A DNA stretch of 64,000 bases, from assembly GCF_001579845.1 (NCBI RefSeq), contig NZ_CP007440.1, positions 434,001 through 498,000 on the forward strand. The letters are read 5' to 3'. Numbering within the stretch: position 1 is the first letter of the stretch; every line of letters begins with the position of its first letter. The notes beneath the pieces are model-generated. The model ran no database searches and was not told where the DNA came from. It worked only from the letters and a program-made list of their open reading frames with translations. This stretch comes from Rhodoplanes sp. Z2-YC6860. Its GTDB lineage: Bacteria > Pseudomonadota > Alphaproteobacteria > Rhizobiales > Xanthobacteraceae. Shown here piece after piece: positions 34,400-42,547 of this stretch. A program made the translations under genes and the position numbers.

Positions 34400-34642
34400 C
34401 TAGTTAGCGGCTTTGACGAGAAGCGCAATGCCGCCGGCCGAGATTGCAAAGCAGATCAGCCAGAGTGCGCCCAAGGGACCGGCCGATCCGCTGCCCATGG
34501 CGCTCATGAAGAACAGCGAGCACACGCCCGGCAGCAGCAGGATGATCCCAACGATCACCATCACAATGGTCGTCACCACGTCCCGTCGTCGTCGCGGGGG
34601 TGCCTGGTCTGTGGGTTCAGATGGCCGTTGATCGTTGGTCAT
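34400..34642 (-). CDS. Small two-helix membrane protein
   Basis: The 80-residue frame from the ATG at 34642 starts MTNDQRPSEPTDQAP, then has a basic run PPRRRRD and two hydrophobic helices (VVTTIVMVIVGIILLLPGVC and LGALWLICFAISAGGIALLV). The positive run before helix 1 suggests N-in topology. It is a paralogue of the decayed gene at 34710-34891 and lies behind it in the radical SAM operon. I do not recognise the family. Confidence 0.6.
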   Translation of the reverse strand: MTNDQRPSEPTDQAPPRRRRDVVTTIVMVIVGIILLLPGVCSLFFMSAMGSGSAGPLGALWLICFAISAGGIALLVKAAN

Positions 34643-34709
34643 AAGCGGGTCCTTCGATGGGAGTGAGTTCCGCTTCCATTTTTTTCGGAGCAAGCCGTGC
34701 AACGGGTGC

Positions 34710-34891
34710 CTACCGGAACGCTTTCACAACCAAACCGACGCCCGAGGCCGAGATCGCAAGACAGACGCCCCACAGCCCGATCCAAAAGATGGCGTCGGCC
34801 TTACTACCGAGACTCCCAGAAGCCACGGTGATGAAATACAGCGCGCACCCGCCGGGTCTGTCGGTCCGGATGGTCCTCGATCGTCGGTCAT
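34710..34891 (-). pseudogene. Decayed copy of the small two-helix membrane protein
   Basis: The ATG at 34891 overlaps the radical SAM stop codon (ATGA). The start MTDDRGPSGPTDPAG parallels MTNDQRPSEPTDQAP of the intact paralogue downstream. After that the similarity jumps to another frame, where PGGCALYF and GLWGVCLAISASGVGLVVKAF parallel PGVCSLFF and ALWLICFAISAGGIALLVKAA. The basic run and helix 1 are missing. A deletion not divisible by three explains the pattern. Confidence 0.7.
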
Positions 34892-36324
34892 GAGAATGGC
34901 CCCCCGCGGGCATCGGCCCTGGTCGCCTTCAATCGCTTTCTGATCTGATCGATCTGTCCGTTGCGATAGAACAGGTTGTAGGTGTCGAATGGGATGATCT
35001 GCCCGTTCGGCGTGACGAAATGAATGCACGAGCGCTTCACGCCGCCGACGCAGAAATTGAAGCGGTCCATGAACTGCACGATAGCGACGCGAAACACGTT
35101 CTCATAGGTGATGCCTTCCGGCACCACGGCCTTGGGCAGGCAGCACAGGAACTCGGCCACGCGCTCCGCCGCGTTGTTGGCGCCGGATGACAGCGAGAAC
35201 AACTCGATGAACTTGTCCTTCAGCACGGGTTGCTTCTCGAAGCTGATGGTGTTCGGCGTGATCGCGACGAACTCCTCGCGCGGGATGAGCGAGGTGACCG
35301 GCATCACGCTGCGGCCGTTGCGCAGCCCATAGCCGATCGAAATCGATTCGGCATTGCACGGCAGCGGCACCATATCGTCGGCGCCGAACACGCCGGAATC
35401 CTCGATCACGCGCCGCCGGATGTCCGACAGAACGATGCGCTGAGATTTGTCGAAATTCTCGTTGCGGCCGGCGTCTTGCACCGGCTGGAACGTGATGCCG
35501 CGCACGCAGCGCCATTCGAGTGCATGGCGCACGATGTCGCCGATCTCGTCGTCGTTGACGCCGCGCTTCACGGTGACGACCAGTGTGGTCGAGATGTTGT
35601 GACGTTCGAGATTCTTCAGCGCCTCGCGGCGAACCCGGCGCAGATCGGCGCCGCGCAACTCCATCAGAGCGTCGCGGCGCAGCGAATCGAACTGCAGGTA
35701 GATCTCGAAGCCGCGCTTCTGCTCGGCGAGCCGGGCGACGAAGTCGGGTTCGCGCGCAATCCGCAGACCGTTGGTGTTGACCATGACGTGACGCACTGGC
35801 CGCGCCCGCACCGCATCGAGAATCGCGAAGAAATCCGGATGCAGCGTCGGCTCGCCGCCTGAAATCTGAATGAGGTCGGGCTCGGCCTCGCTCGCCACCA
35901 GCGTGTCGACCATGCGCTCAATGGTCGCGAGCGGCAGGTGCTTGCTGCGCTCGGGCGATGATTCGGCAAAACACACCGGGCAGGTCAGGTTGCAGTGCTC
36001 GTTGATCTCGATCAGCGCCAAACACGAGTGCTGCTCATGGTCGGGGCAAAGCCCGCAATCATAGGGGCAGCCGAACTCGGTGTGGCTTTGCAGCGCGAGC
36101 GGCCGGTCGCCGGGCTTGATGTAGTCCCTGCAGAGCTTCCAATAGGCCGCGTCGGTCGAGATCAGAGTTGACTGCACGCCGTGCTGCTCACAGCGCTTCT
36201 CGTACCATACCTCGTTGTCCTTGATCTGAATCTTGGCTGGCACCAGCGAAAGACAGGTCTCGCACAGCGAGGTGGTCTGGCCCCAGAACACGTAAGGCCG
36301 TGATCTACGCAAAGGCGCGGTCAT
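34888..36324 (-). CDS. Radical SAM protein resembling tetraether lipid synthase (Tes/MJ0619 group)
   Basis: The 478-residue protein has several cysteine groups before and at the radical SAM site: Cys21/Cys24/Cys45 (rubredoxin-like), Cys86/Cys90/Cys93 and Cys101 (GCPYDCGLCPDHEQHSC), and the SAM cluster Cys111-x3-Cys115-x2-Cys118 (CNLTCPVC). QISGGEPTLHPDF is the SAM-binding GGE motif. A further Cys pair is near the C-terminus (FNFCVGGVKRSCIHF). This layout is that of the archaeal Tes family, which joins lipid tails by C-C bonds. The start overlaps the Lgt-like gene, and a small membrane protein gene overlaps the stop. A lipid substrate is an inference. Confidence 0.8.
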   Translation of the reverse strand: MTAPLRRSRPYVFWGQTTSLCETCLSLVPAKIQIKDNEVWYEKRCEQHGVQSTLISTDAAYWKLCRDYIKPGDRPLALQSHTEFGCPYDCGLCPDHEQHSCLALIEINEHCNLTCPVCFAESSPERSKHLPLATIERMVDTLVASEAEPDLIQISGGEPTLHPDFFAILDAVRARPVRHVMVNTNGLRIAREPDFVARLAEQKRGFEIYLQFDSLRRDALMELRGADLRRVRREALKNLERHNISTTLVVTVKRGVNDDEIGDIVRHALEWRCVRGITFQPVQDAGRNENFDKSQRIVLSDIRRRVIEDSGVFGADDMVPLPCNAESISIGYGLRNGRSVMPVTSLIPREEFVAITPNTISFEKQPVLKDKFIELFSLSSGANNAAERVAEFLCCLPKAVVPEGITYENVFRVAIVQFMDRFNFCVGGVKRSCIHFVTPNGQIIPFDTYNLFYRNGQIDQIRKRLKATRADARGGPFS

Positions 36325-37027
36325 GGACAGCTCCCCGATCGGGCGCAGTGGCGATCATGACGATCGCATAGATGGCAAGCAGCGCGGACAGGATGTGAAA
36401 CAGCGTCAGCGGACCGATCACGCCGCCATAAGGCTTGACGAATTCCCACAGAAAGCGCTGCACGCCGTAGTATCCGACAGCGAGGTAGAATCCGTTTTCG
36501 ATGACGAAACGATTGCCGCGGCGCAGGCACGCGACATAGGCAGCGGCAAACAGCAGCATGGCGGCGCTCTCGTAGAGCTGCACCGGATGGCGCGGGATAC
36601 CGTCCCCGAAATCGTGGCCCCAAGGCAGCGCGGTCGGCATGCCATAGGTGAAATCGTCGAGGCCCGCGAGGTAGCAGCCGATGCGGCCGACCGCGACGCC
36701 GGCCGCAAGGGGCAAAGCGAAGCGCGCGCCGGTGCGTTCGCGGATGCCGGCGATCTTCTTGTAAAGCTCGATGGCGATGATGCCGCCAGCGATACCGCCT
36801 TCGACCGATCGCGCGATACCGGTTTGGTTGGAGAGCCAGAGATTCGCCGTGCCGAACAGCACGGCGCCGATGCCTGCGCCAAACAGCAGCGCTGCAATGT
36901 AGTTCAGGCTGCGCGTCGTTGACGTGGGAAATTGCACGCCAGTGAGCCGCTTGAGCCAAAGCAGCGAAAGCCCGGCTGCGATCCAGGCGACAACGTCGAA
37001 AGTGAAATGAACGAGCGTGCCATCCAT
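36305..37027 (-). CDS. Lgt-like (prolipoprotein diacylglyceryl transferase family) membrane protein
   Basis: This 240-residue polytopic protein keeps two Lgt landmarks: GRIGCYLAGLDD at 114-125 (canonical GRxGNFxNxE) and RHPVQLYES at 146-154. The HGGLIGG motif of Lgt reads VEGGIAGG at 75-82, so its histidine is replaced by glutamate, and the asparagines of the GRxGNF motif are lost. It is therefore a diverged member, unlikely to be the housekeeping Lgt. It overlaps the radical SAM gene by 20 bases. A role in handling a diacylglycerol or phospholipid for that enzyme is possible. Confidence 0.75.
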   Translation of the reverse strand: MDGTLVHFTFDVVAWIAAGLSLLWLKRLTGVQFPTSTTRSLNYIAALLFGAGIGAVLFGTANLWLSNQTGIARSVEGGIAGGIIAIELYKKIAGIRERTGARFALPLAAGVAVGRIGCYLAGLDDFTYGMPTALPWGHDFGDGIPRHPVQLYESAAMLLFAAAYVACLRRGNRFVIENGFYLAVGYYGVQRFLWEFVKPYGGVIGPLTLFHILSALLAIYAIVMIATAPDRGAVHDRAFA

Positions 37028-37079
37028 CGGTCAGCCGAGACGGCAGCCTAGGGCGGCAAATTTTCGTGTGCAACCACGG

Positions 37080-38612
37080 CTAGAGCGCGGCCACGGCGGC
37101 GAGGGGCCGCGGCGCCTGTCCGCTTAGTGCGCTCCGGCGTTCGGAGATCGCCGTTTGTGCCCGGTCGATCGAGAGCGAATAGGCCGCGATGGCTGTGTCA
37201 TCGAGCGTGCTGGCTTCGACGGCCCGGATCATTTCGTCCTGGATCGCGTCGATCTCGTCCTGGAGTTCGTCCAGCGTCTGGTTCGTTTCGGCGGTCCGAG
37301 CGGCCTTGGCGATTTCGAGGAGCCGTTCGAGGCTGCGTAGCCGCCGCACCCGGTCGTCGGCTTTGTTGTAGCTGAGAAGTCCTGCGAAGCCTGAACCCAG
37401 GAACGACACCACCATCAGCCCGAGATAGATCCAGTCGTTGTAGCGATCGAAGAAGCTTTTCAACTCGCCGTCGAGATAGGCCGCGGCGCCCGGATGCACC
37501 GGCACCGAAGCGTCCTTGTCGGTGTCGGGCTTCTCGATCTTGGCGGCCGCGGGAATTTCTGCGGCGATTGCCTGGCGCGAAGCAAGCAGATTCTTGGTGA
37601 GGTCGGCGGCAACCTGTTCGCTCAACAGCTTTCGCGCCACGATGAAATACTGCACCTCGATGGTGTCGACGCTTTCCTCAGGCCGCGGCGGCGAGCCGCC
37701 GAAGGCGCCGGCTTTGATCTCGCTCGATTCGTAGACCGGATTGCGCTCAGCGATGGCTTCGGCAGCGCTGATCGCCAGGAATGTCGGAGGCTCCTTGCCT
37801 CGTGTGGCGGCCGAAATCGCATCGGCGGTGATCTTGCTGCCGACCGGGCCGACCGACATGATCACGTCGACGGCGCTATCGCGGATCGATTGCGCGACGT
37901 TGCTCGGATCAAATTGAATGACGCTGACTCGATCGGGCGCGTTTGGCTTTCCGAGATCGTCACTGCCGAGCATCACGACCTTGTCAGGGTTGATGTTGTA
38001 TTGGTGCAGAATCGCCTTGAGCAGATCGAGATTGCGCGGCGAGCGGCCGACGATGCCGATGCGCCGGCCGACGAACTGCTCGATCTTCTCGACCGGTTTT
38101 ATCTTTGCAGCGGACTTGCCAGCGGATTTGCCCTTGGCGCCCTTCGCGGGGTCCGGCGCGCTCGGCACGATGAACGCCACGACATTCTTCCGCAGGATCG
38201 CGATCGCCTGGCCGTTCTTCGGCATGGCGACGTCGCGGCGCACCACGGCGAGATCGGCTTGGCCTTTATCGAGTGCGTTCGCGGCCTCCAGCGGTCCGCC
38301 TGGCACGACGGTGACATTCAGGCGGGTGTTGAGGCGGTCGCGCGCGAATTGCGCGGCGAATGCCTGGATGATGCGAGCGTCATCGCTGTTCGGCGGCCCG
38401 ACTGCGATCTTCAGCTCCGTCGGCTGCATGGAATGGTGATAGGCGAATGCTGCAACGCCGCCGCACAGCAACACGAAGGCCATAATGATGAGCCCGGTGT
38501 GCTGCATCATCAGCCGGAAGTGGCGGCCCCATCCGTCGCGCGCGTCCCCGGAGGCGGGCACTGCGGTCGGCGGATTGGCGGCTCTGAACAGGCGGCGCAG
38601 TCGGACCTGCAT
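37080..38612 (-). CDS. Membrane-anchored TAXI-family solute-binding protein
   Basis: The 510-residue protein has an N-terminal anchor (about 36-58), a TAXI/NMT1-like binding domain (ELKIAVGPPNSDDARIIQAFAAQFA, RRIGIVGRSPRNLDLLKAIL, VHPGAAAYLDGE), a second membrane helix (WIYLGLMVVSFLGSGFAGLL) and a C-terminal coiled coil (about 420-490, SLERLLEIAKAARTAETNQTLDEL). No TRAP permease gene is adjacent. Its end is 52 bases before the Lgt-like ATG in the same direction, so cotranscription is possible. A sensing or scaffolding role is as likely as transport. Confidence 0.8.
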   Translation of the reverse strand: MQVRLRRLFRAANPPTAVPASGDARDGWGRHFRLMMQHTGLIIMAFVLLCGGVAAFAYHHSMQPTELKIAVGPPNSDDARIIQAFAAQFARDRLNTRLNVTVVPGGPLEAANALDKGQADLAVVRRDVAMPKNGQAIAILRKNVVAFIVPSAPDPAKGAKGKSAGKSAAKIKPVEKIEQFVGRRIGIVGRSPRNLDLLKAILHQYNINPDKVVMLGSDDLGKPNAPDRVSVIQFDPSNVAQSIRDSAVDVIMSVGPVGSKITADAISAATRGKEPPTFLAISAAEAIAERNPVYESSEIKAGAFGGSPPRPEESVDTIEVQYFIVARKLLSEQVAADLTKNLLASRQAIAAEIPAAAKIEKPDTDKDASVPVHPGAAAYLDGELKSFFDRYNDWIYLGLMVVSFLGSGFAGLLSYNKADDRVRRLRSLERLLEIAKAARTAETNQTLDELQDEIDAIQDEMIRAVEASTLDDTAIAAYSLSIDRAQTAISERRSALSGQAPRPLAAVAAL

Positions 38613-41323: not shown

Positions 41324-42547
41324 ATGACCGCAATTCTTGAGACCGATATTCCGCTGGAGAAGATGCCGCTGGAGCGCTACGTGCCGCCGGCGAAGCCTTC
41401 GCTTGTCGGCATGTCGCGAACTGCGCTGGCTGAGGCGCTCGGCGCTGTCGGCGTCGCGCCGGGCCAGCAGAAGATGCGGGTGCAGCAGCTCTGGCACTGG
41501 ATCTACGTGCGCGGCGCCCAGGACTTCGATCAGATGTCCAGCGTGTCCAAGGACCTGCGCGCGGTGCTCGACACGCATTACACGCTGGCGCGGCCGGAGG
41601 TCGTGGCCGAGCAGATCTCGGTCGACGGCACCCGGAAGTGGCTCCTGCGCCTGCCGGGCGAGGTCGCGGGCGAGCGGGCGCACGAGGTCGAGTGCGTCTA
41701 CATCCCGGAAAGCGATCGCGGCACGCTGTGCGTATCGAGCCAGGTCGGCTGCACGCTGAACTGCTCATTCTGTCACACCGGCACACAGCGCCTCGTGCGC
41801 AACCTCACGCCCGAGGAGATCGTCGGCCAGGTGATGGTGGCGCGCGACCGCCTCGGTGATTTTATCGGCATGGCGCGCGCGCAAGGACCCGGGCTGCCGA
41901 CCGAAGGCGAGCGCTGCGTCTCCAACATCGTGATGATGGGCATGGGCGAGCCGCTGTACAATTTCGAGGCGGTGCGCGACGCCCTCGGCGTGGTGCAGGA
42001 CGGCGATGGCCTGGCGATTTCGCGGCGGCGGATCACGCTGTCGACCTCGGGCGTGGTGCCGATGATCGAGCGTGCCGGTGCCGAGATCGGCGTGATGCTC
42101 GCGATCTCGCTGCATGCGGTGCGCAACGATTTGCGCGACAAGCTCGTGCCGCTCAATCGCAAATATCCGATCGAGGAGCTGCTGGCGGCCTGCCGCAACT
42201 ATCCGGGTCTGTCGAACGCACGCCGCATCACCTTCGAATACGTGATGCTGAAGGGCGTCAACGACTCGCTCGCCGATGCCAAGGCGCTGGTGCGGCTCCT
42301 CTCGGGTATTCCGGCGAAGATCAATCTCATCCCGTTCAATCCGTGGCCGGGCAGCCAGTACGAGTGCTCGGACTGGGAGCAGATCGAGAAGTTCTCCGAA
42401 ATCGTGTTCAACGCCGGCTATGCGTCGCCGGTGCGCACGCCGCGCGGCCGCGATATTCTGGCGGCCTGCGGTCAGCTCAAGAGCGAGACCGAAAAGCTCA
42501 CCGCGCGCGAGCGCATGGCGCTGCGCGCGATGGCGATGACGGATTGA
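41324..42547 (+). CDS. rlmN: 23S rRNA / tRNA adenine C2-methyltransferase RlmN
   Basis: RlmN is a radical SAM enzyme that methylates A2503 of 23S rRNA and A37 of some tRNAs. The 407-residue protein has the SAM cluster Cys143-x3-Cys147-x2-Cys150 ([14 protein letters not shown]), [14 protein letters not shown] and, near the C-terminus, the catalytic cysteine in [23 protein letters not shown] is the N-terminal HhH-like segment. It is followed after 6 bases by a small membrane protein gene. Confidence 0.96.

Follow-up and report, generated by a model that had tools for sequence, protein, structure and literature searches.

A conserved Lgt-like and radical SAM gene pair with cysteine-bearing small membrane proteins: a possible new route to modified membrane lipids or lipid-anchored proteins

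We examined a 64,000-nucleotide stretch (hereafter the window) of the 8.19 Mb, single-contig genome of Rhodoplanes sp. Z2-YC6860 (NZ_CP007440.1, positions 434,001 to 498,000), and in it a group of genes for an Lgt-like membrane protein, a radical S-adenosylmethionine (SAM) enzyme and small membrane proteins (Table 1). The Lgt-like and radical SAM genes are a real conserved unit, found together far more than chance would allow, and the small membrane proteins are its third conserved part, not incidental neighbours. All together, these observations suggest that membrane lipids, or proteins anchored by lipids, are modified here in a manner not yet described: a search of the open-access literature in PMC found no description of the Lgt-like/radical SAM pairing or of the three-part unit. 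The reading that we tentatively prefer, with a probability of roughly 0.4, is that of an accessory three-part module in which the Lgt paralogue would lipidate a cysteine of the small proteins and the radical SAM enzyme would modify the lipid tails.

The sequence-only reading from which we started had described five minus-strand genes with tight joints, and its coordinates and joints were all reproduced. The gap between the TAXI and Lgt-like genes is 52 bases (37028-37079), the Lgt-like and radical SAM genes overlap by 20 bases (36305-36324), and the radical SAM stop codon TGA (34890-34888) overlaps the ATG, at 34891, of a decayed small membrane protein gene (S2) that lies next to an intact paralogue (S1).

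Table 1. Features of the locus, in the order in which they are read
Feature	Position	Strand	Remarks
TAXI-type substrate-binding protein, 510 aa	37080-38612	minus	ends 52 bases before the Lgt-like gene; a neighbour in some lineages only
Lgt-like protein, integral to the membrane (seven helices predicted), 240 aa	36305-37027	minus	Pfam LGT
Radical SAM enzyme, Tes/TrsS superfamily, 478 aa, third (Lgt-linked) clade	34888-36324	minus	Pfam, NCBIfam, Foldseek, tree
S2: decayed small membrane protein copy	34710-34891	minus	frames read; profile match E 0.0036
S1: intact two-helix small membrane protein, outer-end cysteine (LLLPGVCS); likely acceptor	34400-34642	minus	

The Lgt-like and radical SAM genes as a conserved pair

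A scan of named genomes returned 588 pattern matches, 570 of which encode relatives; the best 80 loci were used (L-numbers denote loci and G-numbers genomes in the searches, G000 being the genome of the window). The pair stood together in 79 of these best 80 of 570, the sole exception being a contig that starts 24 bases before the radical SAM gene (L071). In 73 of the 79 loci the two genes are directly adjacent, including L095 and L096, where the Lgt-like gene lies partly on the contig. In L081, L083, L084, L086, L100 and L102, a spacer of about 280-620 bases, holding one or two small genes, separates them, and in L102 the Lgt-like gene lies downstream of the radical SAM gene.

Profile searches covered 398 Pseudomonadota genomes. 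The radical SAM profile (E<=1e-30) matched 12 genomes, the Lgt-like profile (E<=1e-20) also matched 12, and at these thresholds the two sets were identical, no genome holding one gene alone. The genes lie side by side in 11 of the 12; the twelfth, G495, has one gene in between. Among 289 genomes of the class, the radical SAM gene was present in 4 (E<=1e-30), accompanied by the Lgt-like gene in all 4. Sequences of G000 and G021 went into all three profiles of this work (A4, A5 and A6) and sequences of G058 into A4 and A5, which makes matches in these genomes partly a matter of construction. The sequence-only reading had staked a joint role on the two homologues being neighbours in related genomes, and neighbours they are. 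Their distribution is patchy: 5 of the 9 listed genomes of genus g24 carry the module, 366 further Pseudomonadota genomes gave no match, and 10 other genomes of the window's own genus gave none better than E 9.0e-6.

The pair also occurs outside Pseudomonadota. When 72,556 plasmid records were searched in translation, 10 were retrieved, and among the six that were opened an Lgt-like gene was found beside the radical SAM gene or in its vicinity in Persicobacter (Bacteroidota) and in Nonomuraea and Mycobacterium branderi (Actinomycetota). These pairs are more divergent, and with them the pair occurs in three phyla. Radical SAM relatives on a Mycolicibacterium vanbaalenii plasmid and two haloarchaeal plasmids (L132-L134) have a methyltransferase gene downstream, and stretches of 9-18 kb around these three and around the TrsS-like L025 gave no Lgt-like match. 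The two haloarchaeal relatives lack the N-terminal cluster cysteines.

Some loci hold further genes. In L081, L083, L084 and L086 a hydrophobic protein of about 140 residues (ADFWCRV.GWLQ near its start) is encoded between the two enzyme genes, and the intervening gene of G495 (L130:6835-7653) encodes a Sel1-repeat protein whose start resembles a lipobox (GGTGC). In G261, a gene of the isoprenylcysteine methyltransferase (ICMT) family (L127:4935-5912) overlaps the end of the Lgt-like gene and may be a fourth enzyme, for lipid or cysteine chemistry; it scores 50.5 bits with Pfam ICMT (cut-off 24) and 79 bits with NCBIfam isopcys_mtase, below the cut-off of 160.

Small membrane proteins with a shared cysteine

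Small genes following the radical SAM gene were collected at 83 loci by hydropathy, length (50-140 aa) and at least two helices; L099, whose radical SAM row is shorter than 400 aa, was left out of the original 84. At least one two-helix small open reading frame (ORF) was present in the chain at 79 of the 83 loci, as a single copy in 30, two copies in 39, three in 5, four in 4 and six in 1. At 55 of the 79 the first small gene starts at -3; an ATGA overlap with the radical SAM stop codon is common. The four loci without a chain have various causes: L069 ends at the gene, in L084 the start was misjudged by the rule, in L100 the copies lie between the enzyme genes, and in L070 none was found. The small ORFs are coding genes. 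The ratio of non-synonymous to synonymous differences (pN/pS) between first copies was 0.23-0.57 in seven of nine pairs and 0.87 and 0.99 in the two others, which are possibly non-orthologous, and first-copy pN exceeded that of both enzymes in all nine.

The first copies share a cysteine. In 76 of 79 its place is the latter half of helix 1, against 3 of 19 control small two-helix ORFs from the same loci, and it stands in a G-x-C context in 68 of 79, against none of the 19. When the Bradyrhizobium/Rhodoplanes block is set aside, 31 of 33 have the helix-1 cysteine and 26 of 33 G-x-C. The motif can be written L-L-(P/S/G)-G-(L/G/A)-C-(A/S/T), with LLPGLCS and FAGGCT as examples; the ending of three proline-rich small proteins from Actinomycetota is G-(L/I/V)-C-T-G-(L/I)-N-P. 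When the coding strand was scanned in three frames, an ORF with a G-x-C helix was found at 75 of the 83 loci; 72 control stretches from the upstream side of the Lgt-like gene gave none on either strand. Of the eight misses, L069 is cut and L070 empty, while L023, L066, L093, L098, L101 and L103 have the helix-1 cysteine with other flanking residues. Taking all 145 small ORFs, 132 contain this cysteine; among the remaining 13, some are fragments of other genes, some have it in a later helix, and a few lack it (the first ORFs of L027 and L098, for example). The sequence-only reading had given the small membrane protein too little weight: at nearly all loci, one to six copies with a shared cysteine lie beside the pair.

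Arginines and lysines average 1.7 at the N-terminus, 0.8 in the loop and 3.6 at the C-terminus, and the termini are richer in them than the loop in 128 of 129 small proteins. Both ends are therefore predicted to be cytoplasmic and the cysteine to lie at the outer end of helix 1, so that it should face out, the side where Lgt acts. The residues around it do not form a lipobox. Bacterial lipoboxes have a small residue at -1 and a hydrophilic start after the cysteine; in the 132 cysteine-bearing proteins, position -1 is taken by Leu in 69, by Gly in 31 and by Ala in 13, and positions +2 to +4 are mostly hydrophobic.

No family of Pfam or NCBIfam describes the small proteins well. Searches of the two gave scattered weak matches and none for S1; the commonest was Phage_holin_3_6 (10 of 54 small proteins, best E 1.9e-5). 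A longer frame of S1 reaches DUF3040 at 22 bits, below the cut-off of 24.7. With our own profile, both matches at E<0.01 in the window's genome sit at this locus (S1 and S2), that of S1 (E 1.8e-21) by construction, as it is row 1 of alignment A6. Among 61 relatives the small-protein profile matched in G000, G021 and G033, all of which hold the pair and two of which gave rows to the profile; in G058 the pair is present and its small proteins fall short of E<=1e-5. The decay of S2 beside an intact S1, noted earlier, is clear from the frames: from its ATG, S2 reads MTDDRGPSGPTDPAG, after which the frame is lost. Its first helix is gone and its loop and second helix lie in another frame; the cysteine and second helix are still recognisable.

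Kept and altered residues in the two enzymes

The radical SAM protein matches Pfam Radical_SAM (PF04055, 78.7 bits, cut-off 29.5) and the HMPTM zinc ribbon (PF23545, 60.9 bits, cut-off 27). Its three cysteine groups (21/24/45, 86/90/93/101 and 111/115/118) are where the sequence-only reading had placed them and are invariant in 31 aligned rows, the window included. That reading had likened this layout to the archaeal tetraether synthase Tes, an enzyme that joins sp3 carbons of two lipid tails. In a Foldseek search with the AlphaFold model (predicted local distance difference test, pLDDT, 80.8; residues 356-403 poor), the best match was Tes (7tom), full-length, at E 7.6e-36 and a template-modelling (TM) score of 0.79; the next, a peptide maturase, had a TM score of 0.36 over 220 columns. 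In NCBIfam the best score was with the (seleno)protein TrsS (NF045646, 301.7 bits over nearly the whole protein, cut-off 490), and Tes (NF045702) scored 269.2 bits (cut-off 450), both thus below cut-off. TrsS scores of the relatives at L127, L131, L135, L136 and L130 were 245.2, 327.6, 188.8, 197.6 and 327.3 bits. The defence-system search with PADLOC gave only weak viperin matches to the radical SAM core (44.8 and 42.5 bits), and an anti-phage role was set aside.

The report on Tes, also called GDGT-MAS, which identifies the enzyme with MJ0619 (PMC9433317), describes a rubredoxin-type site (C9, C12, C33, H36) and an N-terminal cluster bound by C73, C77, C80 and a histidine, in our reading of the alignment His83. 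The equivalent C21, C24, C45 and H48 are kept in 38 of 38 Lgt-linked proteins, C86, C90, C93 and H96 in 36, and the CX3CX2C radical SAM motif (C111/C115/C118) in all 38. The C-terminal cluster region differs. In that report it has a labile Met439, and Tyr459, conserved without exception in 1000 archaeal homologues; the M439A variant was still active (PMC9433317). In the Lgt-linked proteins, the Met439 position holds Met in one of 38 (Persicobacter) and Val in the window, Tyr459 is kept in none (Phe in 34), Cys338 is absent from all and Cys456 kept in all, and Cys470 is Asp or Glu in 35, being kept in the three most divergent (G261, M. branderi and Nonomuraea). All 35 core proteins have Cys323, Cys394 and Cys395. 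These changes imply that the core clade would bind a third cluster, if it has one, in another way.

In a tree of 43 rows (38 Lgt-linked proteins, one Tes and four methyltransferase-linked or TrsS-like proteins, L025 among them), the 38 formed one side of a branch with support 98/87. The tree program's long-branch warning and the small outside sample make a single origin likely, not certain. By this tree, the Lgt-linked proteins appear as a clade of their own, neither Tes nor TrsS, with the TrsS-like L025 outside it, and we know of no member with a known non-lipid substrate. The likeness to Tes thus held for the N-terminal ligands and the fold and failed for the C-terminal residues; the names Tes and TrsS are both ruled out by cut-offs, residues and tree.

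The Lgt-like protein scores about 63-64 bits with Pfam LGT (cut-off 24.9). A separate canonical lgt (G000:C1:1719162-1719914, Pfam LGT 256 bits) is encoded elsewhere in the genome, and through its product residues of 38 Lgt-like proteins were mapped onto E. coli Lgt; another alignment used 79 of 82 Lgt-like sequences (190-299 aa). The AlphaFold2 model has 7 helices (pLDDT 90.8), and the sequence profile matches E. coli Lgt (5azb) at E 3.5e-6. Of the catalytic arginines, Arg239 is kept in 38 of 38 and Arg143 in 37 (Lys replaces it in G261); Tyr235 is kept in 38 and Glu243 in 37. In contrast, Asn146 of the signature motif is Cys in all 38 (Cys118 in the window), Arg246 is Lys in 35, and the NFINGE signature is altered. 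His103 of the HGGL motif is reported as essential in E. coli Lgt, the H103A, N, Q, R and Y variants being inactive (PMC4728403); this position is His in none of the 38 and Glu in the window, a change outside the set reported as assayed (A/N/Q/R/Y). From this pattern, the active site seems to have retained its donor-lipid end and changed its acceptor end. Lgt is therefore not a fitting name for the protein.

Possible roles and neighbouring genes

Lgt, the prolipoprotein diacylglyceryl transferase, uses phosphatidylglycerol as its donor, and the known acceptor of its family is a cysteine such as that of the small proteins. An outer-end cysteine, an Lgt-family neighbour and the fold of a lipid-tail coupler suggest lipidation, the lipid being modified beforehand or later. 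The Lgt paralogue retains the diacylglyceryl-holding arginines, has another cysteine in its active site and would have a new acceptor site; taking a lipid from a donor like phosphatidylglycerol, it would attach it to the small protein's cysteine on the outer side of the membrane, and the product would be a lipidated, membrane-embedded peptide. We infer a lipid substrate for the radical SAM protein; more tentatively, it may reach an alkyl tail by a tunnel like that of Tes and couple it to another tail or functionalise it in some other way, whether the lipid has already been transferred or not. The ICMT-like gene in the G261 operon is a weak hint for lipidation.

Several points weigh against this module. 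L070 carries the pair, yet no small protein was found in 1586 downstream bases; in the small ORF of Persicobacter the end of helix 1 shows no clear motif; and two weak profile matches (E 0.011 and 0.098) lie elsewhere in the window's genome, in longer frames. The loss of His103 could mean that the Lgt-like protein is not a transferase, and Foldseek returned no solved structure for its model at E<=0.001, E. coli Lgt not being among the 50 matches listed. The altered Tes C-terminal residues may mean that the radical SAM chemistry differs, and this enzyme is presumably cytosolic, the cysteine facing out.

The product could instead be a free membrane lipid, the radical SAM enzyme coupling or modifying phospholipid tails in the manner of Tes, the Lgt-like protein binding, presenting or de-heading the phospholipid, and the small proteins recruiting the soluble enzyme to the membrane, with their cysteine either structural or a cluster or tether ligand. 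The full-length Tes fold, the rubredoxin-type and N-terminal cluster ligands (38 and 36 of 38) and the retained donor-lipid arginines would suit such a role. We find it somewhat unlikely: it leaves the conserved cysteine without explanation, diverged tandem copies, up to six, fit substrates better than an adaptor, and Tyr459 and Met439 are kept in 0 and 1 of 38. A bolder form of the lipidation reading, which we regard as unlikely, would be a second lipidation system beside Lgt-LspA-Lnt, in which the paralogue, possibly through its own active-site cysteine, would lipidate multi-pass peptides without cleavage, and the radical SAM enzyme would join or rewire the tails, some products being membrane-spanning lipopeptides.

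Small, fast-changing tandem genes beside a radical SAM gene resemble precursor-peptide clusters, and with TrsS as the best NCBIfam score one might take the enzyme for a maturase of the small proteins, acting near the cysteine or on the cytosolic tail, with the Lgt-like protein as an accessory membrane factor. We consider this improbable, as the fold is that of Tes, the peptide maturase aligning so much less well, and a cytosolic enzyme would be on the other side of the membrane from the predicted position of the cysteine. That unrelated genes were kept together by chance or by hitch-hiking is hardly credible: many Bradyrhizobium and Rhodoplanes loci do conserve their surroundings too (TAXI, BipA), but the unit is intact amid different surroundings in L072-L104, stays together where gene order has changed (L127, L130, L102), occurs in three phyla, and is held by the same 12 of 398 genomes.

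The analysis singles out a clade of the Tes superfamily, mainly from alphaproteobacterial genomes, with a fixed Lgt-like partner and a family of one-cysteine peptides. It offers a concrete, testable acceptor and donor and points to a possible protein lipidation outside the classical lipoprotein pathway. Branched glycerol dialkyl glycerol tetraethers (brGDGTs) serve as palaeoclimate proxies, and the Lgt-linked proteins should not be counted as tetraether synthases in environmental surveys. Mss and the bacterial Tes homologues are radical SAM enzymes that have been connected to bacterial membrane-spanning lipids, and the Tes homologues have been proposed for brGDGT synthesis, their activity described as unconfirmed (PMC11868695, PMC8941075). 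The open-access literature search gave no paper on an Lgt-like partner.

The TAXI gene, counted as part of the cluster by the sequence-only reading, belongs to the neighbourhood only. Besides the window, only L026, L027, L030, L068 and L070 of the 80 loci have it at a distance of about 320 bases or less from the Lgt-like gene, and the 33 loci L072-L104 gave no TAXI match. Its product scores 62.9 bits with NCBIfam TRAP_TAXI (cut-off 84.35); Pfam NMT1_3 is also above its cut-off in the cluster (47.8 bits, cut-off 27). A promoter scan of the locus found none, and terminator-like sites (8 against 4.0 expected) were not informative. A second radical SAM gene in the window (41324-42547) is, we presume from its looks, rlmN. 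Such an rlmN-like gene, a few kb or so away, is common to the window and the Reyranella/Rhodospirillales loci L093, L098, L101 and L103, by a shared old neighbourhood or by chance. In G058 (L024), the pair stands beside genes that we take to be nitrite reductase-like, haem d1 synthesis-like and UbiA-like.

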